Positions 208 to 52,439 of a DNA stretch of 64,000 nt are shown here, piece after piece (position 1 is the first letter of the stretch; every line of letters starts with the position of its first letter). Source of the DNA: Cloeon dipterum (taxonomy: Eukaryota > Arthropoda > Insecta > Ephemeroptera > Baetidae); assembly GCF_949628265.1 (NCBI RefSeq), contig NC_088786.1, positions 41,809,681 to 41,873,680 of the forward strand, given 5' to 3'. Under the pieces are notes generated by a model. The model was not told the DNA's origin. It searched no databases and saw nothing but the letters and a program-made list of their open reading frames with translations. The translations under genes and the position numbers were made by a program.

Positions 208-3200
208 TTAAAAAACAATTTCCAGCGTACCAAAATTCTTGGTATTCAACACATCTACGGCAGTTTGCTTTAAAAAAAATTAAACAAGTACGAAACGAAA
301 TTATAAATATACTTACATCGACTTCGCAGGGATAGTTTTCTGAGAGCCAACAACGTCGGCGCGCGGGAACACAACCGATTGGAGGGGACGACTGCAATAA
401 TTTTGACATGATTCAGGAAGTATAAAATATAATTTTTATCATACGATTGATCTATTATCATAATTTCTTATGATTATTGCCGAAACCACGCTAGGCACCT
501 TCTGTTGGCAGCACTTGTACATTTCGTAGGCAGTCGTGCAATCATCATTCAACTCTGAATCAAAGAATTAGATCGTTCTCAAAGTGCAATTAAAAAATTC
601 AGACTAATTGCGCTGCACTGGAGGAAGGCAGCCATTGCCTGTTCAAGCAAAACAGGGCTTTCCTGGGCTACCAGTTCTATTTGCCGCAAAACTTCCATGC
701 TCATTGCCTTTCCAAAGTCAAACTAAAAATTAAAAAAATCTTTAAAGCGTTCCAAAAATAAATAAAAAACAAACCAATCCCATTTCAGACCCAACGCATT
801 TTATGAAGCACTGAAAAATTTTTAAATTGTTTTTTATTTAATCCAGGTTGAAATTTAACCAACCATCAGGTTCCGCGAGACGCTTGCCGCAAGGAAGGCA
901 GTCACGTTAAAAAGCAGGTCAATTTGTTCTGAAACAAAATTAATTTAAAATCAGAATCACTGCCGAATTTTTATGTCAATTAACCTAAAGGCACATTCCA
1001 GATTTCTGCGCATTCCATCTCCATAGCCACGTTGGGAGTGGCTTTTTTTCGAATCTCACAAAGCGGATTTTTCTGTTCTGCACAGTCGGCTGTTGCAAGC
1101 AGGGACGTTCCGTTTCTAACCTCGAGATAAACGCAGGCAAGACCTGCCTTTGGATGGCCAACCTTCCACTTGATTTCGGGGGAGACAAAGTCCCGATCCC
1201 TCGAGCACCACCGGAATTTTGAGGGGCAACCCTGGTCCGTTCCAGACAGCCAGAAGTCACCATTTCCCTCTGGATTTTTTAATTGTTTAAAAGATGCCAG
1301 AGTAAAATATTCCCTCACTGTTGATGAGTTTAGAAAAGCAATTCAATTTTCCAGCAGACTCCATCGAGGCCAGGGTCAGACCGATTTCGCAACATTTATC
1401 CCGAGCTGCGGTCCAGCTTTCCTGAGATTTCGGGTATTATAAAATAGGTCAAACCTATTAAAAAATATTCTACCGCGCTTTTGGTGAAGTTTAAAAACAT
1501 TCGTCCACATCCTTCGTACCACTCTCCATAACTGAGATATACTATATATTTAAAAACGTTATTAGCCATTATTTCACTCTCTTCAACGAGAATTAACCGA
1601 CCTATTAGATTACCTTCAACATCAAACAGAGGAGACTTTAAAACAATTTAATTTTATTTTAAGTTTAATTAATTATATAAATTTAACTAATCGTTGGCAG
1701 CTCTTAGTTGGACAAGATGCAACACACAGCGTAGGAGGTTTGATGATCAGAGACTAAAACATTAAAAAAATAATTGAAATCCGCATTTGTCTCATTTAAA
1801 TACTTTGCACGCGAAACTGTAATGGTTAGCACAGTTCCTGTCGGATAAGATTGCTCCTGTTGCATTCAAAATCTTGCGAAAGTGGATGCAGCTCTCATTG
1901 CCGCCTTTATTGTCTGGCTGTCCTTTCTCCCACGTGAGGCCTAGGTTAAAAATTGCCGGACCAAAGGGCTCGCACCACGACCATTGACCGGCTGACGAGC
2001 CCTTAATCGTTCCTGAGGTCCAGAAATTTGAGGTTGCCTTCCAGTTGGCTAGTAAATATGTTCAAAGTTCATTATCATAAGGAAAAAAATAATTTCTGTC
2101 TTAAAATGAAATCTCCAAAATCAAGAAATCACTTTTTGTAAAACTAGTCAGGGCGTTCTGCTCAGCCAGATTATCCAAATTGATCGCCTCCATTCCCAAA
2201 GCGCAACAATGCGCGTAGTTCTCCAACCAAGTCATCTAAAACAAATAAATTATTTGTAATATAGCCTTCTCTCTTGATTTTTTATATTAATTGATCAAAA
2301 CCGGTTGATTTCCAAAGAGATAAGTGTAGTTTCCGATGGCAGTCCAAAACCCGTAAGAGGGCGAATCTAGAATAAAACGAAGTATATTCATTTGTATCTC
2401 AATATATCCTAAATTTACCCTTCAAGCTTCCAGAAGAATCAAATAAAGAATTCTAAAATTTGATTTTTAAGTAAATAAATTTCCCTTTTAAAAAAGTCCA
2501 AACCTTTTTGATGCAAACGTCGCTGCTAGGACACTCAACGGTGTACTGGCAGATAAACGGCAGGCTCTCATTGCAGTATTTGTGCACCAAGCCATTGACA
2601 GAAGTGGCAGAAATGGCGAATGCCAAACAGTGTTCTGCAGGGGTTGGTGCTACCGTTGTCGAAAGCCAGAATTTATTCGAGGAAATCAACGTGGGAGACA
2701 TGTTGTAGCCCGTCGAACACCACGAGTACTGACTCAACGGCGCACAAAGCGGATCCACGTTCGAGCCACTCGTCCAATAAGTTCCGGCTGACGAACATAA
2801 TTCTTAGGCTGTTTGATAAAATCATTTTAAATTCTAATTTACCGCTCAAGCTTGCCAAGCAGTCAGACTCCTCGAGAGAAGTTACGGCCAGGAGAGTCAT
2901 GTTCATCGCCTTGCATCGCAATCCGGCCTCGTTTCTCGGCACCTTATTTTTTAATCAAATTTATTCATTTGAATTAATAAGAAACTCATTGATACATTAA
3001 CGTTTGAAACGTAATATTTCCTATTTGTGCACTTTAGTGGAACTTTTACTGAGCCATCGGCTGAGATTTAAGATTTATTACTCTTCAGATTATAATTTAT
3101 TTATTTTTGTTCAAACCTGTGTTTGGCATTGATGTTGGATTCTTTAAATCGAATAGAATTGGTAATAAGTAATCGTGTTTAACTTAATTGTATTATTAAA

Positions 3201-3401
3201 ACATGTATAGTGAAATTGGCAAATGATTGGAAACGTATTTTAGTTCCTTGCCAAAAATAGTGATAGAATCTTTCTAGTTAAATTCGTGAATTACCACCAA
3301 GTAGTTGTTGAAATCTGCACAATCCAGAAGACATGGAAGAGGCTAGATCCATGTAGGAATTTCTTAAAAATTTTGTTCAATATCTCTCATTGGCTTATAC
3401 A

Positions 3402-3439
<38 letters not shown>

Positions 3440-6400
3440 TGTTGTTGTTGTCGTCGTCGTCATGGTTGTTGTTGTCGTGGTAGTAGTTGTAGTAGTGGTT
3501 TTTGAAGTAGTGGTTGTAGATTTTGAAGTCGTAGTGGGTGTTGTGGTTGTAGTGGTTGTTGGTAAAGAAGTTATAATAGTTGTTGCTGTTGTAGTAGTTA
3601 GAATGCTTGTAGATGATGTCGTTCTAGTGGTTGTTCCAATTGACAGTCTAAAAGCACATCTCTGTATTGAAACAAAAAATTGCAAGATGTACAGAAATTT
3701 TTACGTAGGAACTGGAGTGGTTGGAGAAGTTCGCTTAATGGTTGTCACAGGAGTAATCGCTCTGAATTGAATTACTTCTTATAATTTCTTGGAGTAGTTT
3801 AAATAGAAACTATACCTTTTCTTCGTAGTTGTAGCTTTGACGGTGGTTTTCGTTCCTGGAGGATCAGGCACCTCGCAAACAAAGTTGGAAACCATATCGC
3901 ACGATATTCCTTCGAGACCCAGAGCGCTAAGACCAAGACAGTCGCCGTCTTTTGACGGGTCTTTGGGTGGGAGAAGCGCAGAGGCCAAATCTCCCAGCCA
4001 ATCGGTGCCCCCGTCGGTGACCTTTTCCATCGAGGTCAAGAACGTGGTTGCTGACAGGCCTAATAAGAGAAAGGATGCCATCAAGAATTCTGTATGGCAG
4101 TCCATAATCACCAATGTCTCCGAGAAAATCCTTAACTGGGTCGAGCTCAGCGATCGAGCCGAGAGACATAAGCTCCAGACCATTGTCTTTGCAAATGGTT
4201 GTAGCCTCGGGAATCGTAGCACGGTTCTCGGGAACTATTAAGTTTTTTCCCCCAACGAAGTTCAGAACAGCTAATTCAAGATGATTATAAAACAAGAATG
4301 ATATTTAAAATAATTCGAACCATCTTCAATTGAAGTCAAAGAGTCCAAACCCCTGGAAAAATATATTTAAGAAAACTTTCTTTAAAATATCGTAAAAATA
4401 ACATAGTTGATGCATCATCCTCCTTCGGATTTTCGCAAACAAAATGGTTTTTAGAATCGCACGAGGCGTTGAAAAATTTATTCTTCTGTTGCACAAGGCA
4501 ATTTCCCGGACCTCCAGGAGGAGTGCCAGATCCCCAATCCGATAACAATTTTGCTCCTTCCGAAATTAGAGATGAGAAAGACGAGAAAACCGGGCTATCG
4601 AGCAAATCTACAGACACAAGTTGTGAAAAAAGAGAACAATACATGCAGTTTAATTTATGTTACCAATATACTGCAAATAATTTGAAATGTTTTCAGCTTC
4701 GATCGGGCTGTCTAAAGAAGCTATCTCCATCTGGTCCTGTTCGCAAATTTTCTTGGCATCAGAGAAAGTAGCCTGTCGATTTAACTCGTAAATATTTTAG
4801 CTTTTCTTAAAAGTTAAAAGTCACCATCTCCTCTGGGAACTTGTACTGTTTCGCTCCGATCTTGACCTTTTTGTTAGTAGGTGCTAAAATGTGGTTTTGA
4901 TGTTTAGTTAAACTTATTTAATTTTTTGGTTTACAATTGAATTCTGTCCGCCATGCTGAAAAGTATCACGTGATTAAAACATGAGGTGTTTCACAGGAAG
5001 AGTTCGTTGGGGAATTCCACGAATAAAGGTAAATTAGTTTTAAATAATTTGAAGAAACACAATGTCAAAAAGTAGGTATGAATTTTAAAATTTGAAACTG
5101 AAATACCGTCTGTTTTTTTCGTGGCTTTTCTGAAAGATTTATGCACTCTAGTTTTAATATTAGAAATTAATTCCAAAATTTACGGTTTCGTGGTGGTTTT
5201 TCTTGGCGGACGAGTCGTCATTCCCGGTGGGTCCGGCACCTGGCACACGAAGTTGGAGACGGTGTCACACGATATTCCCCCGAGACCTAAAGCGCTAAGA
5301 CCGAGACAGTCGCCATCTTTTGCGGGATCTTTGGGTGGGAGAAGCGCAGAGGCCAAATCTCCCAGCCAATCTGTGCCCCCGTCGGTTAATTTCGTCATTG
5401 CGGTCAAAATTGTGTCCGTCGGAATGTCTAAAAATTAATTAGTGATATATTTGGAAACCTTATAAATGGAAATACCAATATCGTTGATAAAGTCCTGCAC
5501 TGGTCCGAGTTCGACGAGTGAGCTCAGGGACATGAGTTCTAAGCCTTCGTCCTTGCAAATGTCTTTCGCCTCGGGAATCGTTGCTAGGTCTTCGGGGATC
5601 AGCATATTTTTTCCGTTAATAAAATTCAGAACCGCTAATAACGATATGTTAAATGAAAACACAAATTAAATAAGAGCTAAATACAATCTCCGATTGAAGA
5701 CAAAGAGTCCAAGCCCCTATACAAGTGGGACGTAACTAATTGTTTTCGGTCAGGACAAAATTTACTCATCCTCTTTGGAATCTTCGCAGATGAAATTGTT
5801 TTTCGCTTGGCATGATCCGTTGAAAAACTTTCCTCCCTTTTGCACCAAGCAATCTCCAGGCCCTCCGGGAGGACTTTCAGTTCCCCAATTCGATAATAAT
5901 TTCGCTCCTTCCTCGATCAAAGACGCAAAAACTGGTTCGTTCGACAAATCTGAACAAAAAAATTTAAATTGGAACAGCCTCAGTGCCAATATAATTTTAT
6001 TAACCTATATACTGCAAATATTCTGAAATCTTTTCAACTTCAAATGGACTGTCGAAAGATGCGATCTCCATCTGGTCCTTTTCGCAAATTTTCTTGGCAT
6101 CGGAAAAAGTAGCCTAGTTAAATATAGATAAGAGTGTACTTCTCTCTTGCTGGGATTTATTATTTACCTTGGCAAAAGGAAACTTGTACTTCTTATTGCC
6201 AATTTTAACCTTTTTATGGGAGGGTGCTGTTGATATCTAATTATGATTTAAACTCTTATATATATGTTTAAAAAATATTTACAGTTGTACATCGTGCGCC
6301 AACCTATAAAATTAATTTCATAAAATATGACGTAGAGATTCAAGCGGATGTGGTGTTCGCGATGGAAAATTTTATTCCGCGAATATTAAATTTTTTAAAA

Positions 6401-6989
6401 TCGCTGAAGCAGTGCAGAACGTTCTCGTCAACAGTTTCAACATTATATAAAATCATAGGGAAAATGATAAGAATCTGAGTTTATACCATTGTGTTTTGAC
6501 GTGCCATTTCTGCAAGATATTATAGAATTACAATTAAATATTTTAGGTAATTTTAAATTAAATTTGCCTGTTTTTATTTGATTTGAAGCATTTCTTGTGG
6601 CCACAGCATTTGATTATGTAAGATCTCCGTGTTGAAGTGGTTTGAACTTAAAAGATATTCAATAGAAATGGCGAAGAGAAGAATTTAAAAAAAAAAATTT
6701 GTGTACTTTTGATGATTTGGCGCCGGTCCAGAGGGGCTGTTATGCTGATTATTTTGCCTTTAGTTTTGATTCCTGTGGAAGTGTTCCGGTCTATTTTACT
6801 TAATTATGTTTGAAAATTATTAATTTTTCATTTAATTTACGAACCAGCAACCAATTTCTTGGAAGATCCTTTCTTCGTGTCTGACTGAGCCTGAAAAAAA
6901 GTGTATTAATTTGGGTACTCACTCCAATTCTCAAATAATACGAGAAAACAGAGAAAAATGCAGAAAACAGCAAATTTTGGAGAGCTCAT
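208..6989 (-). CDS. Secreted multi-CTLD protein with C-terminal OBP-like domain (gene A)
   Basis: Multi-exon gene read right to left. The first exon encodes a hydrophobic signal peptide (MSSPKFAVFCIFLCFL) followed by AQSDTKKGSS in the next exon, with a likely cleavage after AQS. Small basic exons follow at about 6840-6890, 6500 and 6565-6625 (KCCGHKKCFK). Degenerate CTLDs 1-4 lie at about 6240-5770, 5720-5180, 4885-4400 and 4350-3830; they carry PPGGPG where sugar-binding CTLDs have EPN/QPD. A poly-Thr linker spans about 3690-3390. CTLDs 5-7 lie at about 3350-2510, 2370-1790 and 1720-1010; CTLD 6 keeps a GQPDN motif. The last exons (about 1030-208) encode an OBP-like domain containing CFIKC, LQCSA, DDCTTAYEMYKCC and a short Cys-rich tail ending in QTAVDVLNTKNFGTLEIVF. 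Estimated length is about 1.2-1.3 thousand residues. The CTLD calls are secure; the exact exon set is a manual reading. All seven CTLDs plus the OBP are assumed to be one transcript because no start signal separates them. Confidence 0.78.
3395..3560 (-). repeat. Poly-threonine coding trinucleotide tract (gene A linker)
   Basis: The plus strand reads as runs of gtn triplets. On the coding strand every triplet is ACT, ACA, ACC or ACG, so the protein is an almost pure threonine run. Mixed synonymous codons set it apart from a simple slipped microsatellite. Such tracts usually form O-glycosylated, mucin-like spacers; here it separates CTLDs 1-4 from CTLDs 5-7. Confidence 0.85.
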
Positions 6990-8100: not shown

Positions 8101-8522
8101 CTATGCCTTTACACAGACAAAGGAATAGAATATGTTAAGCAAACTAGCGTATTTCTGCGGATTCATGTAATTGTCAGTGAGGTTCGGAAACGAGAACGAA
8201 TATAGACGATTCGAGTAAAGGTCCAAAACGATGATCGACTCCTCACAGGGATAAATTTCTGAGTACACATCATCGTATGTTACATCCTGCAAAACTTTGC
8301 GGCTGTTGCACCACACCTCGTGCGTCGCGCTGATGAACTCCGTCTCGCCAACGAACGCATTACCCACAGCAGCTGCAACGAGCCATCCTTTTTATTTCTG
8401 ATTTGCATAAGAAAATTTCGCTTACAAATGATATTATAGAGCATCGCATATTCTGCCTTGGTCTCAGGCTCCATTAGCTTCATTCCCAGGGCACAGCAGT
8501 GTTTGTATATATCCACTGGATT
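8101..8522 (-). pseudogene. Partial C-type-lectin-like gene (two terminal exons)
   Basis: Exon 8522-8426 encodes NPVDIYKHCCALGMKLMEPE followed by TKAEYAMLYNII, the start of a CTLD with the family CCALGM motif. Exon 8372-8101 continues AVGNAFVGETEFISATHEVW.. and ends ..FYSFVCVKA stop. No upstream signal-peptide exon is visible between 8523 and the 3' end of the next lectin gene at 8859. It is therefore a truncated paralog, or alternatively an extra terminal exon pair used by gene B. The open frames across both exons argue against long decay. Confidence 0.5.
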
Positions 8523-8858
8523 CTGTTATGTTTTTTTTTTAGATTTTTTACTGTGAGGCCGTGAGATGGTTAATTATATGCAGTGAAATTTAGATACTCG
8601 TTTTGTGACCCTTTAAGATCGTTATGAGCATTTCAATGAGTTTGAAACATTACTTAAAATCACCTAAGACCGTCTAACCTCATTTTCAACGATTTAAATA
8701 GACAAGTCTAAAGTTCACAGCCATATATACTAATTTTGATTGATTACATGTAGTCCAGTATTATCAACGTCACCAAAATAGTAAGTTTTGTTTCCTATTA
8801 TTTTCATGTATCCTTTGCTATCTATTTTCCGAAGAAAAGTACTAAATTTATTGCAATC

Positions 8859-11800
8859 TCAAGAAAAGTGCTGCATACCACGACCATACAAATAAAGCTC
8901 CTCTCTGGCAGTGTCCTTTAAACAGAATCAAACAAATTCGAAACAAAATATTAAATACATACATTAAGTTCGCAGGGGTAGTTTTCTGAGAGCCAACAAC
9001 GACGGCGCGTGGGAATACAACCGATTGGAGGGGAAGACTAAAAGTCATTTTAGAATAAATTAGGCAGAAATTAATATCTTTTTCTTACGATTGATCCATT
9101 ATCGTAATTATTATATATTATTGCCGAAACCACGCCAGGCGCCTTTTGTTGGCAGCACTTGTACATTTCGTAGGCAGTCGTGCAGTCGTCATTGAACTCT
9201 GAATAAATGGATTAAATCGTTCTCAAAATGGAATTGATTAAATGCAAACTAATTGCGCTGCACTGGAGGAAGGCAGCCATTGCTTGTCCAAGCAAAACAG
9301 GATTTTCCTGGGCTACGAGTTCTATTTGCCGCAACACTTCCATGCTCATTGCCTTTCCAAACTCAAACTAAAAATTGAAAAAATATTTAAAGCGTTCCAA
9401 AAATAAATAAAAAAAACATACCAATCCCATTTCAGACCCAACGCATTTTATGAAGCACTGAAAAAATTTTAAATTGTTTTTTTTTTTAAATTCAGGTTGA
9501 AATTTAACCAACCATCAGGTTCCGCGAGACGCTTGCCGCAAGGAAGGCAGTCACGTTAAAAAGCAGGTCAATTTGTTCTGAATCAAAATTAATTTAAAAT
9601 CAGAATCACTGCCGAATTTTCCTCTCCACCTGAAGGCACGTCCCAGATTTCTGCGCATTCCATCTCCATAGCCACGTTGGGAGTGGCTTTTTTTCGAATC
9701 TCGCAAAGCGGATTTTTCTGTTCTGCACAGTCGGCTGTTGCAAGCAGGGACGTTCCGTTTCTAACCTCGAGATAAACGCAGGTGAGACCTGCCTTTGGAT
9801 GTCCAGTCTTCCACTTGATTTCGGCGGGAACAAAGTCTCGGTTTCTCGAGCACCACCGGAATTTTGAAGGGCAACCCTGGTCCGTTCCTGAGAGCCAGAA
9901 GTCGCCATTTACATCTGGATAATTTAATTATTATAAAATTGTCAGAGTGAATTTGTCCCGCACTGTTGACGAGTTTGGAAAAGCAATTCAATTTTCCAAC
10001 CGATTCCATCGAGGCCAGCGTCATGCCGATTTCGCAGCATTTATCCCGAGCTGCGGTCCAGTTTTCCTGAGATTTCGAAGGGTAAATTTTAGATTACAGT
10101 TAATTTAAAAACGATTTACCGCGCTTTTAGTGTAGTCTAAAAACATTCGTCCACATCCTTGGTACCAGCCTCCATAGCTCTGATAGTCTTTTTTATTTTA
10201 AAAACGTTATTGACCTTATTACACTCTCTTCAACGATGGTTAACAAACCTTTTAGCTCATCCAGATTGGAACGTGGATTATAGTTAAATAGCATGTACTT
10301 AAAAAAGAATTTAATTGGACTTTTAATTAAAATGATTATATATTAATTTAACTGATCGTTGGCAGCTCCCAGTTGGACAAGTAGCAACACACATCAAAGG
10401 AGGTTTGATGATCAGAGACTAAAATATCAACAGCTGTTTAATCGAAATTCGCAATTCTCTCATTCAAATACCTTGCACGCGAAACTGTAGCGGTTTCCAC
10501 AATTCCTGTCTGACAAGATTGCTCCTGTTGCATTTAAAATAAAGCGGAAATGAATGCAGTTCTCATTGCCGCCTTTTTTGTCTGGCTGTCCTGTCTCCCA
10601 CACGAGATTTTGGGTGAAAATCGTCGGACCATTGGGCTCGCACCACGACCACAGGCCTGCCGACGAACCTTTCGACGTTCCTGAAGTCCAGAAATTCGTC
10701 GTTGCCTCCCATTTGACTTGTAAATGTAGATAATATGTTCAATATCATAAGAAAAAGTTGAATTGCAGTCTTGTTATGTATAATTATCCCTTTTAAAATA
10801 TGTCCTATGAATAGAAATATTACTTTTTGTAAATCTAGTAAGGGCATTCTGCTCGGCCAGATTTTCGATATTAAACGCCTCCATTCCCAAAGCACAACAA
10901 TGCGCGTAGTTCTCCAACCAAGTCATCTGAAAAAAAATAAAATGTCCCCCTTTTCTATTTTGATTCTGAATAATCGAGCAAAACCGGCTGATTTCCAAAG
11001 AGATAAGTGTAGTTTCCGATGGCAGTCCAAAACCCATAAGAGGGCGAATCTACAATAGAACGAAGTTTATTAATTTGTATCTATCAATATATCCGAAATT
11101 TACCAATCAATTTTCCAGAAGAATCAAATAAAGAATTCTAAGATTGTATCTTTAAGTAAAAATGTATCTTTGAAATATAATTTCCTAACATTTTTGATGC
11201 AAACGTCGCTGCTAGGACACTCAACGGTGTACTGGCAGATAAACGGCAGGCTCTCATTGCAGTATTTGTGCACCAAGCCATTGACAGAAGTGGCAGAAAT
11301 GGCGAATGCCAAACAGTGTTCTGCAGGGGTTGGTGCTACCGTTGTTGAAAGCCAGAATTTATTCGAGGAAATCAACGAGGGAGACATGTTGTAGCCCGTC
11401 GAACACCACGAGTACTGACTCAACGGCGCACAAAGCGGATCCACGTTCGAGCCACTCGTCCAATAAGTTCCGGCTGATGAACATATATTTCTTAGGATGT
11501 TTTATAACTCAATTTAAATTACCACTCAAGCCAGACAAGCAGTCAAACTCCTCGAGGGAAGTTACGGCCAGGAGAGTCATGTTCAGCGCCTTGCACCGCA
11601 ATCCAGCCTCGTTTCTCAGCACCTTATTTTATAATCAAATTTATTGATTCGAATTGAGATTAAAATAATTGTTACATTAACGTTTGAAACATAATATTTC
11701 CCATTTGTGCACTTTGGTGAAACTTTTGTTGAGCCATCAGCTGAGATTCAGAGGATTCAAAACTGTATTTTATTTTTTAAATTTAATTTTGTTCAAACCT

Positions 11801-12043
11801 ATGTTCGGCATTGCTGTTGGACTCTTTAAAAGAATAGATTTAGTTAATTAAAAATAAATATGGTTAAATGGGCCGATTGGAAATCATCAATGTTCGTAAC
11901 CACAAATGAAAATGTCAGTTTTTAAAATTTCGAATTACCGCCAAGAAGTTGCTGAAATCTGCACATTCCAAATAACACGGAACGGGCTACAATTCCAGAC
12001 TTTTTAGTGAAAAGAGTTTAAAAATTCATATGCTTTTACAGTA

Positions 12044-12076
<33 letters not shown>

Positions 12077-15000
12077 GTGGTTGTTGTTGTGGTTGTTGTC
12101 GTCGTCGTTATGGTTGTTGTTGTCGTCGTCGTCGTCGTGGTTGTTGATCTAGTGGTCGTTGTTGATGGCGCAGTGGTTGTAGTTGTTGATGTCGTAGTGG
12201 ATTTTGCAGAATTTGTTGTAGTTGGTAAAGTAGTTATAGTAGTGGTTTTTGTAGTAGTTAAAATGCTTGAAGATGATGTCTTTCGAGTAGTTGTTCCAAT
12301 TGACAATCTAAAAACAAATCTCTTTAACGAAAAAAATTGCAAAATATATAAAAACTTTTACTTAGGAATTGTAGTGGTTGGAGAAGTTCGCTTAATGGTT
12401 GTCACAGGAGTAGTCGCTCTAAATTAATTCATATAACATCACGTAGTAATCTAAATTGAAACTACACTTTTTCGTCGTGGTTGTGGCTTTGACGGTGGTT
12501 TTCATTCCTGGTGGATCAGGCACCTCGCAAACAAAGTTGGAAACCATGTCGCATGAAATCCCCTCGAGACCTAGAGCGCTGAGACCGAGACAGTCGCCAT
12601 CTTTTGACGGGTCTTTGGGTGGGAGAAGCGCAGAGGCCAAATCTCCCAGCCAATCGGTGCCCCCGTCGGTGACCTTTTTCATCGAGGTCAATAACGTGGT
12701 TGCTGAAAGGCCTAATGAGAGCGAGCATTTAATCAAGTATTCCTTTGAGCCGTTCTAAATCACCAATGTCTCCGAGTAAGTCTTTTACAGGGTCAAGCTC
12801 AGCGATCGAGCCAAGAGACATAAGCTCAAGACCTTTGTCTTTGCAAATAGTTGTAGCCTCGGGAATCGTAGCACGGTTCTCAGGAATTATTAAGTTTTTT
12901 CCCCCAACGAAGTTCAGAACAGCTAATTAAAGATAATTATAAAACAAACATGATATATATATAAAATATTTCGAACCATCTTCAATTGAAGTCAAAGAGT
13001 CCAAACCCCTGGAAAAATATATTTAAGAAAACTTTCTTTAAAATATCGTAAAAATAACATAGTTGATGCATCATCCTCCAACGGATTTTCGCAAACAAAA
13101 TGGTTTTTAGAATCGCACGAGGCGTTGAAAAATTGTTTCTTCTGTTGCACAAGGCAATTTCCCGGACCTCCAGGAGGAGTGCCTGATCCCCAATCCGATA
13201 ACAATTTTGCTCCTTCCGAAATTAGAGATGAGAACGACGAGAAAACCGGGCTATCGAGCAAATCTACAAACACAAATTGTGACAAGAGAAAAATACATTT
13301 TAATTTCTCTAACCAATATACTGCAAATAATTTGAAATGTTTTCAGCTTCAATGGGGCTATCTAAAGAAGCTATTTCCATCTGGTCCTGTTCGCAAATTT
13401 TCTTGGCATCTGGGAAAGTAGCCTGTCGATTTAACTCGGTAATATTTTAGCTTTTCTTAAAAATTAAAAGTCACCATCTCCTCTGGGAACTTGTACTGTT
13501 TCGCTCCGATCTTGACCTTTTTGTTAGAAGGTGCTGTAATGTGGTTGTGATAATTAGAGTTAAACCTATTTAATTTTATATGGTTTACAATTGAATTCTG
13601 TCCGCCATGCTGTAAAATATCACGTGATTAGGACATGACGTATTTCAACTGAATAAGTATTCGTGAGGGAAACAAGAATTCCACGAATTATGGTAATTAT
13701 GGTTTCATAAAATTTGACGAATTGCAACGTCAACAGTTAGGTATGATTTTAAACATTGAAAACACAAATACCGTCTGATTTTGTCGTAGCTTTTCTAAAA
13801 GATATTATTACGATAAAAATTTTGATGCAATAAAGTTTCGAAATTCACGGTTTTGTGGTGGTTTTTCTTGGCGGACGTGTCGTCATTCCCGGTGGGTCCG
13901 GCACCTGGCACACGAAGTTGGAAACCGTGTCACACGATATTCCCCCGAGACCTAGAGCGCTGAGACCGAGACAGTCGCCGTCTTTTGTCGGGTCTTTGGG
14001 TGGGAGAAGCGCAGAGGCTAAATCTCCCAGCCAATCGGTGCCCCCGTCGGTTAATTTCGTCATTGCGGTCAAAATTGTGTCCGTCGGAATGTCTAAAAAT
14101 TAATTAGTGATATATTTGGAAACTTTATCTATGGAAATACCAATATCGTTGATAAAGTCCTGCACTGGTCCGAGTTCGACGAGTGAGCTCATGGACATGA
14201 GTTCTAAGCCTTCGTCCTTGCAAATGTCTTTCGCCTCGGGAATCGATGCTTGGTCTTCGGGGATCAGCATATTTTTTCCGTTAATAAAATTCAGAACCGC
14301 TAATAACGATATGTTAAATGAAAACACAAATTAAATAAGAGCTAAATACAATCTCCGATTGAAGACAAAGAGTCCAAGCCCCTATACAAGTTAGACGTAA
14401 CTAATTGTAAGTTTTTAATCAGTACAAAATTTACTCATCCTCTTTGGGATCTTCGCAGATGAAATTGTTTTTCGCTTGGCATGAACCGTTGAAAAACTTT
14501 CCTCCCTTTTGCACTGAGCAGTCACCTGGTCCTCCGGGAGGATTTTCAGTTCCCCAATTCGATAATAATTTCGCTCCTTCCTCGATCAAAGACGTGAAAA
14601 CTGGTTTATCCAACAAATCTGGACAAAAATTCTATAAATTGGAACAGCCTAACAGCCGAAATATTAACCTATGTACTGCAAATATTCTGAAATCTTTTCA
14701 ACTTCAATTGGACTGTCCAAAGATGCGATCTCCATCTGGTCCTTTTCGCAAATTTTCTTGGCATCGGAAAAAGTAGCCTAGTTTAATATAAATAAGAGTG
14801 TGCTTCTCGCTTGCTGGGATATATTATTTACCTTGGCAAATGGAAACTTGTACTTCTTATTGCCGATTTTAACCTTTTTTTGGGAAGGTGCTGATAATAG
14901 TTATCTTAGTAAGATTAAATTTTTATATTTATTTCAAAAATATTTACAGTTGAACATCGTGCGCCAACCTATAAAATTGATTTCATAAAATGTGCGGCGT

Positions 15001-15610
15001 AGATTCAAGCGGAAAGAGTAAATTTTTAAAAATTGAAAAAGCAGTGCAGAAAACACACGTCACAAGTTTTCAACGTATATTAAATTATTCGGAAAATTAT
15101 AACAATTTAAATTCTCACTTTTCTGTTTTGATGTGCCATTTCTGGAAGAAGTCATAACTTCAATTTAATATTTTAAATAATTTAAATTATACTTGCCTGT
15201 TTTTATTTGATTTCAAGCATTTCTTGTGGCCACAGCATTTAATTATGTAAGATCTCCGTGTTGAGGTCGTTTTAACTTGAAATATATTCAATAGATACGA
15301 CGAAGAGAGGAAATAAAAAATAAAATTTATATACTGATGATTTTTCGGTCCAAAGGGGCGGTTACACTGATAATTTTTCCTTTAGTTTTGATTCCTGTGG
15401 AAGAGTTCCGGTCTATTTTACTTATTTGTGTTTTAAAATGATTAATTTTCCATTATATACGAACCAACAGCTAATTTCTTGGTGGATCCTTTCTTTGTGT
15501 CTGATTGAGCCTGAAAATAAAGTCTATACTCTGGGAACTCTCTCAAATTATGAAAATCATACGAGAAAACACAGAATTATGCAGAAGAGAGCAAATTTTG
15601 TTGATTTCAT
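8859..15610 (-). CDS. Secreted multi-CTLD protein with C-terminal OBP-like domain (gene B)
   Basis: Tandem paralog of gene A with the same exon order. The start exon MKSTKFALFCIILCFL ends at a GTATGA donor and joins AQSDTKKGSTKKLAVGS. CTLDs 1-4 occupy about 14890-12480, the Thr-rich linker about 12320-12040, and CTLDs 5-7 about 12000-9630. OBP-like exons were placed exactly: 9577-9513, 9457-9422, 9367-9250, 9198-9089, 9037-8963 and 8915-8859. After the first cysteine (MEMEC) the six-cysteine spacing is C-x30-C-x3-C-x42-C-x8-C-x8-C, within the classical insect OBP range. The tail contains GCIPTRRRCWLSENYPCELN and ends DTAREELYLYGRGMQHFS stop, so the last exon differs from gene A. A CC doublet follows the sixth cysteine. 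Probable roles are extracellular ligand or microbe recognition; this is family-level inference. A 5' leader (CAGTATCATGCCTGCCGT on the minus strand) is conserved upstream of both start codons. Confidence 0.8.
12040..12200 (-). repeat. Poly-threonine coding trinucleotide tract (gene B linker)
   Basis: Equivalent of the gene A linker. Nearly all triplets are ACN on the minus strand, with a few APS, RS and I interruptions on the 5' side. Length and codon order differ from gene A, as expected for a slippage-prone but threonine-constrained tract. Confidence 0.85.
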
Positions 15611-17238: not shown

Positions 17239-24550
<7,312 letters not shown>

Positions 24551-48546: not shown

Positions 48547-51113
48547 TCAACAACAAACAGACTTGAAGTATCGCAATTTGTCGCTCTGTCCATGGGGGAC
48601 GAGCTGCCAGGCCAAGAGATTGGAAACGTTGCGTGCTTTGGTGTCGACGCCTTCCTGGACCAGCCACTTGCAAAACTCAAGGTCGGCCATGTGTGCTGCC
48701 AGGTGCAGAGCCGTCATTCCCCAAATATTCGATTCTTTGATTAAATGCTTCCTTCGCTCGTGAACGAATTTAGCGCCGGCGAACTTGTTTCTCATGACGC
48801 AGAAGTGCAGCAGGTTCGATTGGTCAACGCGCACCTCCAGGTTGGCGCCGAGATCGACCAGCTCCTCCACCACGTCCAAATTTCCCTGTTCCAGGGCCAC
48901 GTGTAGAGGGGTGTAACCGCGATTATCCTTCAACCCCTCGTCCACGCCCGCGGAATGGAAGAAACGGACGAGTTGCCGCGCGTGCTGCTCGTTCAGAACT
49001 GCGCAGTGCATCGCATTGTATCCGTTTTCCTTGCAAGGGTCCATCAACCTGGCGCCTGCCTCGAGCAACCACCTGATTTTGAGAAAAAAATCGTTATAAA
49101 TCGGTTGGAACGAAGAAACTGCTACATATTTTTTGTCTATTCAAAAGGAGCGACAAGAACGCTGGCGACCAATCAGATTAAGGGAGCTGTTCTCTGATTG
49201 GCTGTGAAATGTGCGACATAGTGCTGCTTAAATAACGTATTTGACGAAGTTTCTGAGCACGCCAATCGATTCCGGAGGGTGGAATTAAGTAAAGTGGAGG
49301 TTTTTGGCGACCAAAAAGTCCAGCGCGGCGTGCGAACCTTTTTTCCCGCCAAATTAATATAAAAGCGAGAACTGCGCATGCGTCAGGGCTGGCTGTATCC
49401 GACAAAGAAGTCATTCGTACAGGCGATCTCTATGCAGGTGCTCAAACCAGCCCTCACGCATGCGCACTTCTCGCTTTTATCTTGTTTTGGCGGGAAAAGA
49501 GGTTCGCACGTCGCGGTGAATTTTTTAACAGAAAAACGTCAATTTTACCTAATTCGACCCTCAGGAATCGGTTGGTGTGCTCAGAAACTTTGTCAAAGAC
49601 GGTCTTTAAGATCGCGACGACAGCGCCACAGTGACAAAGCTGCTACTGTCGCTGTGGCGCTGCTGTTTCGCGGCCTTCTCTTGATTGGTCAGTGTTGTTC
49701 TTGTGGCTCTTCCTGATTGGTTCAGGTTCAGACGCCTAGATAAAGGGTTGCTATTCTCCCTCGTAGTGTCGAATAATCTTTACTGACTTTTGGCGAGATC
49801 ATACATGCATCAGATATTACAAAAATGATGTCCTTTCCTTACCTGCACATTTCTTCCCCTGCAAACTCCGCTGCCAGGTGGAGAGCCGTCCTTCCTCCCT
49901 TCCCCAGACGCTCGATCAAGTTTTCGTCAATTCGGTGCACGAACTGGGCCCCTTTCAGGTCATTTTGGCACACCAGGTAGTGTAAGAGGTTCAAACCGTG
50001 GACTTCTACCCTGACATTGGCACCGAGGCGCACAAGAGCCCTGGCAACCTCCAGATTCTTGGCTCTCAGGGCGTTGAAGAGGGGAGTCTGTCCCAGAACG
50101 TCTTTGGCGTCGATATCCAAACCTATTGAGAGCAAAAAGTGGACAACCTGAGGTCCATGGAGCTTGTTCAGGGCGGCGTAGTGCAGGGCGATGCAGTTTG
50201 TCTCCTCGTGAGCGTCATCGGACCTGATTCCCTTCTCCAGGAGCCACTGGCACATTTCTTTAGTGGAGCGCTCAGCCGCGACGTGCAACGCGTTTTTCTT
50301 ATTCATGAAATTCAGCCCAAAAACCTGCTCAGGCAGCAGGGTGTGGACGAACCTGGCGCTCTCCAGCCTGTCATTGGCGATGCAGAACTGAAGAAGGTGC
50401 TGCCCGACCTTTGCGCCGACCTTGAGCAACGCTTGCGCTGCCGCCAGGTTCTGCCGCAAAAGGGCCCAGTGCAGGGGCGTCTCTCCTCGCAAGGTCTTAG
50501 CGTTCACGTCCAGCAGGTTGGACAGGGACAGCACCAGAACCTCCGCGTGCCTCTCGTTCCGCACGGCGTGGTGCAGGACGGTGGCGCCCTGGACGGTGAC
50601 GTCCCTGGGATCGACTCCCCGCCGCATCAGCCAGTCGCACATTTCGGGACCGGCCACCTCCACGGCCAGGTGCAGCGGATTCCTCCCCTCCGAGTCGGTG
50701 ACCCTGAGCAGCGAAGGGTTTTTCTCCACAACCACCATGGCAAAGTTGAGTTTGTCCCTTTTCAAGAAGTGCCCCAGCAAATTGCTCTGAAGAAAATTGG
50801 CCAGTTTGAAGTTGAACGTCCTCAGGGCGTACTCGAGGGCGTCTTCGCCGTCCACGTCCTCCGCGGTCAAACTCAGGCCGTGCGACGAGACAAAATGCTG
50901 GATGATGTCGAAGCCGTGCACCTTGTTGACGGCTGCGAAGTGCAGAAGCGACACTCGCAGCTCGGTCTTCCTCTCGGGGCGGCCACCTTGCTTCAGCAGT
51001 TGAAGACAGCTTTCCAGGTCGCCTTCCTTTGCTGCCAGCATCAGCGGCGTCGCGCCGACCTGCAGCTTTCGCAGAAATTGGCTCGTTTCCGCCATCGTCA
51101 TGAACGACTCCAT
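48547..51113 (-). CDS. Ankyrin-repeat protein
   Basis: Two exons, 51113-49843 and 49072-48547, sum to 1797 nt (598 aa). The protein is almost entirely ankyrin repeats, roughly 12 to 14 by eye. Signatures include GATPLMLAAKEGDLESCLQL, GRNPLHLAVEVAGPEMCDWL, GATVLHHAVRNERHAEVLVL, GETPLHWALLRQNLAAAQAL, KNALHVAAERSTKEMCQWLL, GQTPLFNALRAKNLEVARAL, GYTPLHVALEQGNLDVVEEL and GMTALHLAAHMADLEFCKWL. No death, SOCS or ion-channel domain is visible, so it is probably a scaffold. Exon 1 is a single 1271-nt open frame. The 770-bp intron contains foldback MITE family 1 copy 3. The start is the ATG giving MESFMTMAETSQFLRK; the open frame has no better upstream candidate. Confidence 0.85.
49228..49610. mobile_element. 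Foldback MITE family 1, copy 3 (ankyrin gene intron)
   Basis: Left TTAAATAACGTATTTGACGA AGTTTCTGAGC and right GCTCAGAAACTTTGTCAAAG ACGG are inverted. Internal TTCCCGCCAAA/TTTTGGCGGGAA, ACTGCGCATGCGT/ACGCATGCGCA and TTTTTAACAG pairs match the other copies. Confidence 0.8.
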
Positions 51114-52439
51114 GTTTATTCTGTGCTAAAACGGAAACCAAATTTGTTACGAATGTGGAAATTGTTAAGTTGTAAATAATTTGTTTTTTTCTGTTAGTTT
51201 TTAAACCTTGAATAGCGGAAGAGATAAAATAGATGTAGTTTGGAATCGAAATTTGTTTTTTAATCATTTTTCCTACTGTTAAAAAACACTTACTAAATTG
51301 CGCTGTTATCCTCAAATGGTTGAAATCAACTTGGAAATGTTACTGCACGGCTGAAACAATGAATAATATTCATAAAATTGAACAGCTTATTTTTGTGTGG
51401 TTATAGAAGCAGTAAACACTTTTGTACCGAACCAAAAGCAGTGATATTATTTGTCTAGCTGGTTTCGTTATAAAATTGTGTGTGAGTAAGGTGAGTAAGA
51501 AGTGTGGTCTAACGGAAAGAACACGATATGTGTCTTGTGCAATCCAAACAACAACAATTTATTAAATACTCACGGGTCATTCACGTGCTGTGTTGAAACC
51601 ACTTGGATAAAATGCGTTCTTCCCAATTCTTTACTCTTTCAAAACAAATGAAATAAACAACGGCTGCCTGCGTTTGATGGCGTGGGCATTTGACGCATGC
51701 GCCTTCAGCTCAATTTACCACCACAATGCTCTCTCCTATCACGAATGCCGCTTTGCCGCGCAATTTAATTTTAAATCTTGCCGCGCTATTGGCAAGCGCC
51801 CCAAGCGGCAAACCAGCTCAACAGCTCACAATCAGCTGCTGCCGGATGCTGCACATGGAGAGGATGGACCGATGGAATGATTCGGCAGAAATCCATTGGT
51901 ATCGGCGTAATCAGATGTAAGCATCGTCCAATTTAAGTTTTATCGTAATTTTTAGCTATTATTTAGCCGGTTAACATTAGTAGTCTTTTATCAAAGAATT
52001 TGCGTGATAACTATTGAGTCGCATTCGTGCCTAATGGAGATAATTTTCCATCGTACGCAATTGGAAATTTGAATTTCTAATTTTGTTCCTGCAGGAAGTG
52101 TTCAGACAAATTTTGTGTGAACATTTGAGAAAAATTTGCAATGGGGAAAAACTGGAAATTTAATCGGTTTTTTTTGCCGCTATTATCAACTGGTGAGTTT
52201 TTATCAGGCCAAACGCTGATCCCTTTCCAAAATGTGCTATTTTTGAAACAATAAAAATAACTTTTAAGACTCGAAAGTACAATTTTTATCTTCTCACAAA
52301 TTTATTTTCAGAATTCTTCATGTCCCCGGCCGGATGACATCAATTTCCTTTTCTCTAAAAAGAGTTCGTAACCAGTAAAATTAAAAAAAAAACGGATTTT
52401 GGGGCACTTATGGTCAGAAGCACTTGGAAAAAATAGGCC
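51114..52439. other. Spacer upstream of the ankyrin gene
   Basis: AT-rich with a short GC-richer part at 51670-51870. Probably contains the minus-strand ankyrin promoter. No other gene, RNA or repeat copy recognised. Confidence 0.5.

Follow-up and report, generated by a model that had tools for sequence, protein, structure and literature searches.

A family of predicted C-type lectin and odorant-binding protein chimeras in the mayfly Cloeon dipterum

The window analyzed here, a 64,000-nt stretch of the Cloeon dipterum genome, contains two genes on the minus strand (genes A and B) that raise the question of whether an odorant-binding protein (OBP) domain can be built into a protein made of C-type lectin domains (CTLDs). 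An OBP is ordinarily a protein in its own right, and OBPs are regarded as small soluble carriers. The first-pass annotation of this DNA had described a classical six-cysteine OBP signature after the seventh CTLD, and we found its spacing, C-x30-C-x3-C-x42-C-x8-C-x8-C, to be exact in both genes. In gene A, the junction exon (985-1269) holds the C-terminal half of CTLD7 (..CEIRKK) and OBP Cys1 (MECAEIW; 1012-1010) in one open frame. It is followed on the same strand by OBP exon 2 (864-928), the segment before C2; by exon 3 (775-810), with C2 (810-808) and C3 (798-796) in the motif CFIKC; by exon 4 (605-722), with C4 (617-615) near its end; by exon 5 (445-554), DDCTTAYEMYKC, with C5 (540-538) and C6 (513-511); and by a cysteine tail (317-391), PPIGC..RRRCWLSENYPC. 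The cysteines were located by eye. Gene B repeats this arrangement, with the CTLD7 end and Cys1 in a junction exon at 9630-9914 and OBP exons 2-5 plus the cysteine tail within 8963-9577 (9577-9513, 9457-9422, 9367-9250, 9198-9089 and 9037-8963). The six exons of each gene have AG/GT borders and form a single stop-free frame, and the introns of both genes are GT-AG from the end of CTLD7 through the OBP.

A profile search of the joined exons, proposed with that annotation, placed both genes above the 22-bit cut-off of PBP_GOBP (PF01395). The OBP part of gene A scored 41 bits (E=2.3e-10) and that of gene B 38.2 bits (E=1.7e-9), each with one wrong residue in the query (E for K), and a corrected, longer C-terminal segment of gene A scored 38.9 bits (E=1e-9). 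In the spliced C-terminal segment of gene A, Pfam reported PBP_GOBP beside three Lectin_C stretches; with the Thr-rich part set aside, gene A gave one PBP_GOBP stretch in its C-terminal half and none in its N-terminal half. Thirteen paralogous OBP domains, a subset of the 21 loci that we spliced, each matched PBP_GOBP individually (13/13, E<=0.01; 32.8 bits for the first member). Searched against the PDB, the profile of these 13 paralogs reached E<=0.01 with 15 distinct sequences (best 4.8e-8); two of them, chains from Anopheles, carry locus names alone, and the rest are named as odorant-binding proteins. The Pfam match and the PDB profile match rule out a chance cysteine pattern.

Classical OBPs have a six-helix fold with disulfides C1-C3, C2-C5 and C4-C6. 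The domain described here resembles classical insect OBPs (PF01395) such as LUSH in its six-cysteine spacing, its Pfam match and its profile match to solved OBPs, but it has no signal peptide of its own, lies between CTLD units and carries an extra cysteine tail. Plus-C OBPs also have extra cysteines, with a proline directly after C6; the family shares the extra tail cysteines, but the residue directly after its C6 is G or C in 19/19 aligned loci. Double-domain OBPs and D7 proteins likewise hold an OBP fold inside a longer secreted protein, as two joined OBP domains with no CTLD, whereas the family has one OBP stretch.

The first-pass annotation had the protein end in the OBP domain. The OBP is indeed present after CTLD7, but the cysteine tail, a linker exon and a CTLD-like unit, which we call CTLD8, follow it. 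In gene A, the linker exon (231-267, phase 0 to 1) precedes the first CTLD8 exon (96-169), and the remainder of CTLD8 lies to the left of the window (L023:181-606); reading through the CTLD8 exons meets an in-frame stop, which disappears once an intron of 63 nt (by eye) is spliced out. In gene B, the linker exon (8885-8915) was placed by eye by analogy with gene A, and the CTLD8-like exons occupy 8104-8821 (8821-8748, from about 8522, and 8391-8104; first two borders by eye). The join of the last two of these exons was not found in gene B; L022 and L025 are open through that point. The CTLD8 main-exon pattern was present in 19 of the 21 sources, and the two that it missed, L031 and L041, were matched by tblastn (8.1e-18 and 0.001, respectively). 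The L025 copy of CTLD8 had no Pfam match and the profile comparison of CTLD8 with CTLD7 was weak (hhalign probability 26%, E 7e-4, 30 columns), the name CTLD8 being based mainly on position and a CC..G pattern. The downstream CTLD8 in genes A and B and across the genome rules out a C-terminal position for the OBP. The tail after OBP C6 follows the pattern PPxPC..RxCW..PC (window 317-391; L022-L041), and in most aligned loci it has three cysteines, an odd number.

We searched the genome (G000; 190 Mb, 10 contigs) exon by exon and set the border between strong and weak matches at a gap in the E-values. With the junction exon of one paralog as query, there were 390 candidates, of which 150 were scored and 97 were strong matches (E<=2.6e-24); OBP exon 5 gave 96 strong matches (E<=1e-5) and 26 weak ones, with all 125 candidates scored. 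A junction exon precedes every strong exon-5 match (96/96) by 420-2500 nt in the same orientation, and 96 of the 97 strong junction matches are accompanied by an OBP exon. The weak exon-5 matches are individually non-significant (E 0.007-0.8) and were counted through pairing only: 21 of them paired with 20 distinct weak junction matches, and eight of these 20 pairs were read, all eight with correctly ordered CTLD and OBP exons, the other 12 being counted from paired matches. At four of the five unpaired weak matches (L050-L053) the OBP exons are preceded by a CTLD7-type exon, and the fifth (L054) is rearranged. CTLD8 gave 93 matches, 91 of which are located 555-3909 nt downstream of OBP exon 5, and a CTLD8 match lies downstream of 90 of the 96 strong OBP loci. 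The total is at least about 120 CTLD7-OBP loci (96+20+4, of which 24 are diverged), a lower bound from which 33 loci (21+8+4) were read. The domain is kept in genes A and B, as the earlier description of two tandem copies held, but that count was far too low, and the main new point is the scale of the family, with the OBP internal. It was also right that the fusion is not a one-off annotation artefact, which the 96/96 junction pairing and the 90/96 CTLD8 pairing rule out: both recur genome-wide.

The strong matches are spread over four chromosome-sized contigs, and the largest tandem clusters among the strong loci contain 22, 14 and 8 junction exons. L041 (C4:29308000-29317900) consists of two tandem members with identical spliced CTLD7-OBP proteins, a recent duplication. 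The rearranged member L054 (C3:13741500-13744000) has OBP exons 3-5 and lacks the junction exon. At G000:C2:6339498-6380408, four equal-score CTLD matches lie about 13.5 kb apart, each with in-frame stops. PF01395 used as a genome query found 1 exon only, probably because the OBP exons are short. The genome also has at least one stand-alone OBP, which we take to be OBP59a-like, at L040 (C3:3621000-3630900; minus strand, about 5510-4280); it has a PF01395 exon match above cut-off, and in the 9.9 kb retrieved there no CTLD match fell below E 0.05. Distant stand-alone OBPs would escape the exon-5 query, and the family count covers fused loci, not the fused share.

Twenty of the 21 distinct spliced loci are open from the junction exon to the tail, with splice sites picked using expected positions and phases and with L035 manually assigned a GC donor. 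L038 (C1:37194165-37195036) has one in-frame stop, in OBP exon 3, and is a possible pseudogene. Three sequences were left out of the 19-locus alignment, namely L038 for its stop, the second L041 copy for its identical protein and gene A of the window as the same locus as L023. The six OBP cysteines are invariant in 19/19 aligned loci (by eye). Median dN/dS was 0.15 for CTLD7, 0.23 for the OBP and 0.34 for the tail, calculated only from pairs with dS 0.03-1.5 (43, 54 and 77 of 171 pairs, respectively), and the highest single tail value was 1.02. The CTLD7 and OBP distances are correlated (r=0.68). The OBP part is under purifying selection and is kept as protein together with the lectin part.

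The sugar and Ca2+ motif of C-type lectins is EPN or QPD plus WND. Of 22 distinct CTLD6 copies inspected by eye (diverged loci not included), 21 have QPD at the sugar site, and the WND-like calcium position of CTLD6 is S/T-D; an automated CTLD6 tally of 23/23 was set aside because it also counted EPN elsewhere. We propose that the CTLDs, above all CTLD6 with its QPD, would bind glycans and so hold the protein on a surface, mucus or a microbe, and that the OBP domain would take up a small hydrophobic ligand. The result would be a tethered capture or delivery protein serving chemosensation or the surface defence of an aquatic insect. Judged from sequence, the family likely consists of secreted modular lectin-OBP chimeras that are glycan-tethered and carry hydrophobic ligands, and the balance leans modestly towards an OBP part that retains ligand binding. 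The OBP is embedded between lectin units, and an N-glycosylation-type sequon (N-V/A-S/T) lies in its second segment, OBP exon 2 (e.g. window 864-928), in 16 of the 19 aligned domains, which would also suit a mere helical spacer or disulfide scaffold within a lectin, with ligand carrying lost. Such a loss is possible but doubtful, given the low OBP dN/dS median, the retention of all six cysteines in every aligned locus and the general PBP_GOBP model, which still recognizes all 13 members given to it.

We assembled the upstream part of gene A, all on the minus strand, with this layout. Exon 1 (6923-6989, GTGAGT donor) encodes a putative signal peptide, MSSPKFAVFCIFLCFLVLFENW (by eye), and is followed by N-terminal exons (6487-6880) with a Cys motif exon, 'N4' (6646-6568; IKCCGHKKCFKS, GC donor), the borders of these being set by hand. 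CTLD1 and CTLD2 (5107-6226) are subfamily-specific and CTLD3 and CTLD4 (3816-4883) are alike to them. Thr-rich, mucin-like exons (3401-3761) lead to CTLD5 (2419-3060), CTLD6 with the QPD motif and a Cys linker exon (1688-2366), a short exon leading into CTLD7 (1614-1635) and the CTLD7 N-terminal exons (1319-1541). The signal-peptide exon of gene B (15554-15610) was found as a match to exon 1 of gene A. As first annotated, seven CTLD units lie upstream of the OBP by sequence likeness (CTLD1-4, the Thr-rich stretch, CTLD5-7); Pfam reported three Lectin_C (PF00059) stretches per half of gene A, with 65 bits (E=1.3e-17) for the N-terminal half and 54.7 bits for the C-terminal half (cut-off 22.6). 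The tandem CTLDs, the mucin-like stretch and the QPD in one CTLD are shared with multi-CTLD secreted proteins and receptors (PF00059), from which the family differs by containing an OBP domain. The Thr-rich, mucin-like exons are made of ACN repeats and differ in length between gene A (3401-3761) and gene B (about 12004-12357, minus strand).

The gene A model comprises 20 N-terminal and 19 C-terminal exons, stop-free and beginning with the signal-peptide-like exon, with borders placed by hand to preserve the frame. The phase at the end of the Thr-rich exon does not fit that of CTLD5, and continuing in frame runs into a stop; the model therefore lacks a small exon or an alternative splice site between the two. 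The same mismatch, together with signal-peptide exons that were matched within the window only, would fit a locus of two genes, an N-terminal mucin-like gene with CTLD1-4 and a second gene with CTLD5-8 plus the OBP. We consider such a split unlikely. CTLD1-4-type units were found only in A, B, L022, L024, L025 and L026, and in 13 of the 14 fetched regions without CTLD1-4 matches CTLD5 is preceded by the N4 exon at a distance of 0.9-1.7 kb, which argues for a single gene in that N4 and CTLD5-8 seem united; in L034, the 14th region, CTLD5 gave no match. In addition, visual inspection of the stretch from 3401 to 3060 revealed no second signal-peptide exon. The layout of the family would then be a signal peptide, an N-terminal Cys motif, optional CTLD1-4, a linker region (Thr-rich in A and B), CTLD5-6-7, the OBP with its cysteine tail and a C-terminal CTLD-like unit.

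The junction between CTLD7 and the OBP bears on whether the OBP exons could instead form an independent gene that has a promoter and a start of its own. In favor of separate genes, OBPs usually stand alone, and an intron separates CTLD7 from Cys1 in several diverged members. In gene A, however, the last CTLD7 cysteine (..LCEIRKK) and OBP Cys1 (..MECAEIW) share the uninterrupted exon 1269-985, so there is no space for a separate OBP start or signal peptide, and no signal peptide lies between CTLD7 and Cys1 in the main family. Genome-wide, 96 of the 97 strong junction-exon matches are stop-free to the query end, past Cys1; the exception (C1:41343016) ends at query position 81. With Cys1 in the exon and frame of CTLD7, the OBP of genes A and B is not a small free-standing protein with an adjacent signal peptide, and a separate OBP gene was rejected for these loci. 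With the CTLD7-OBP-CTLD8 order repeated throughout the genome, we regard separate genes as highly improbable. The secreted CTLD-OBP chimera of the first-pass annotation is supported by the signal-peptide-like exon, the in-frame fusion exon, both Pfam domains in one spliced segment, purifying selection and the size of the family, but with the OBP internal, not terminal. Genes A and B very probably encode this lectin-OBP architecture. Finally, L038 with its stop (1/21 spliced) and the rearranged L054 might hint at an assembly artefact or dead duplicates, a reading that we give almost no weight against strong matches on four chromosome-sized contigs, 20/21 open loci and dN/dS medians far under 1.

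The diverged loci suggest how the lectin-OBP chimera arose. We checked seven of 13 diverged loci (L044-L048, L050 and L051), chosen because their junction match ended at or shortly after ..ICE, and in all seven CTLD7 and Cys1 are on separate exons, with a phase-0 boundary intron (by eye; GC donor in L051). In L042 and L049 the junction exon is unbroken through Cys1, so the boundary intron is not present in all diverged loci. The OBP-plus-tail cassette ends at a phase-0 intron, and an intron directly before C2 is common to the family OBP and the stand-alone OBP at L040. Because the module is symmetric (0-0) with introns at both borders, we favor exon shuffling through phase-0 introns as the most likely way in which the OBP module would have been inserted between CTLD7 and CTLD8. 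The first intron, between CTLD7 and Cys1, would then have been lost in the main family, which would have grown by tandem duplication after the OBP insertion.

Chemosensory surveys count OBPs by domain. If most OBP domains here sit in multi-lectin proteins, such counts need re-reading against the whole protein, as do claims of gill olfaction in mayflies. The main text of the C. dipterum study, based on a 180-Mb assembly, gives 191 OBP genes, a very large OBP family like the one described here; it records gill expression for 82 of 167, counts 25 as gill-specific, and has 0 occurrences of the word 'lectin' (PMC7250882). The study of another mayfly, Parafronurus youi, lists only 10 OBPs (135-252 aa, nine classic and one atypical) in the same insect order, and 'lectin' has 0 occurrences there (PMC13205551). 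For the damselfly Calopteryx splendens, four OBPs are described, three of them fragmented (PMC5381652). We found no description of a CTLD-OBP fusion in the titles and abstract openings among the literature matches listed, which leaves its absence from print unproven. The published 191-gene expansion may largely be the lectin-embedded OBP family of about 120 or more loci. We see an even chance that the mayfly expansion consists mostly of lectin-embedded, glycan-tethered, small-molecule-binding surface proteins, a tandem-duplicated recognition repertoire and not ordinary odorant carriers. The family suggests that a surface-binding protein acquired a built-in carrier for small hydrophobic molecules and was afterwards duplicated many times; a lectin-tethered ligand carrier, if true, would join glycan recognition and small-molecule binding in one chain.

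Elsewhere in the window, Rfam and tRNA scans gave 0 matches. A gene at about 17600-20000 on the plus strand is presumably a RecQ/BLM-type helicase by motif, and a 428-aa open frame on the minus strand (49839-51125) resembles ankyrin repeats by eye.
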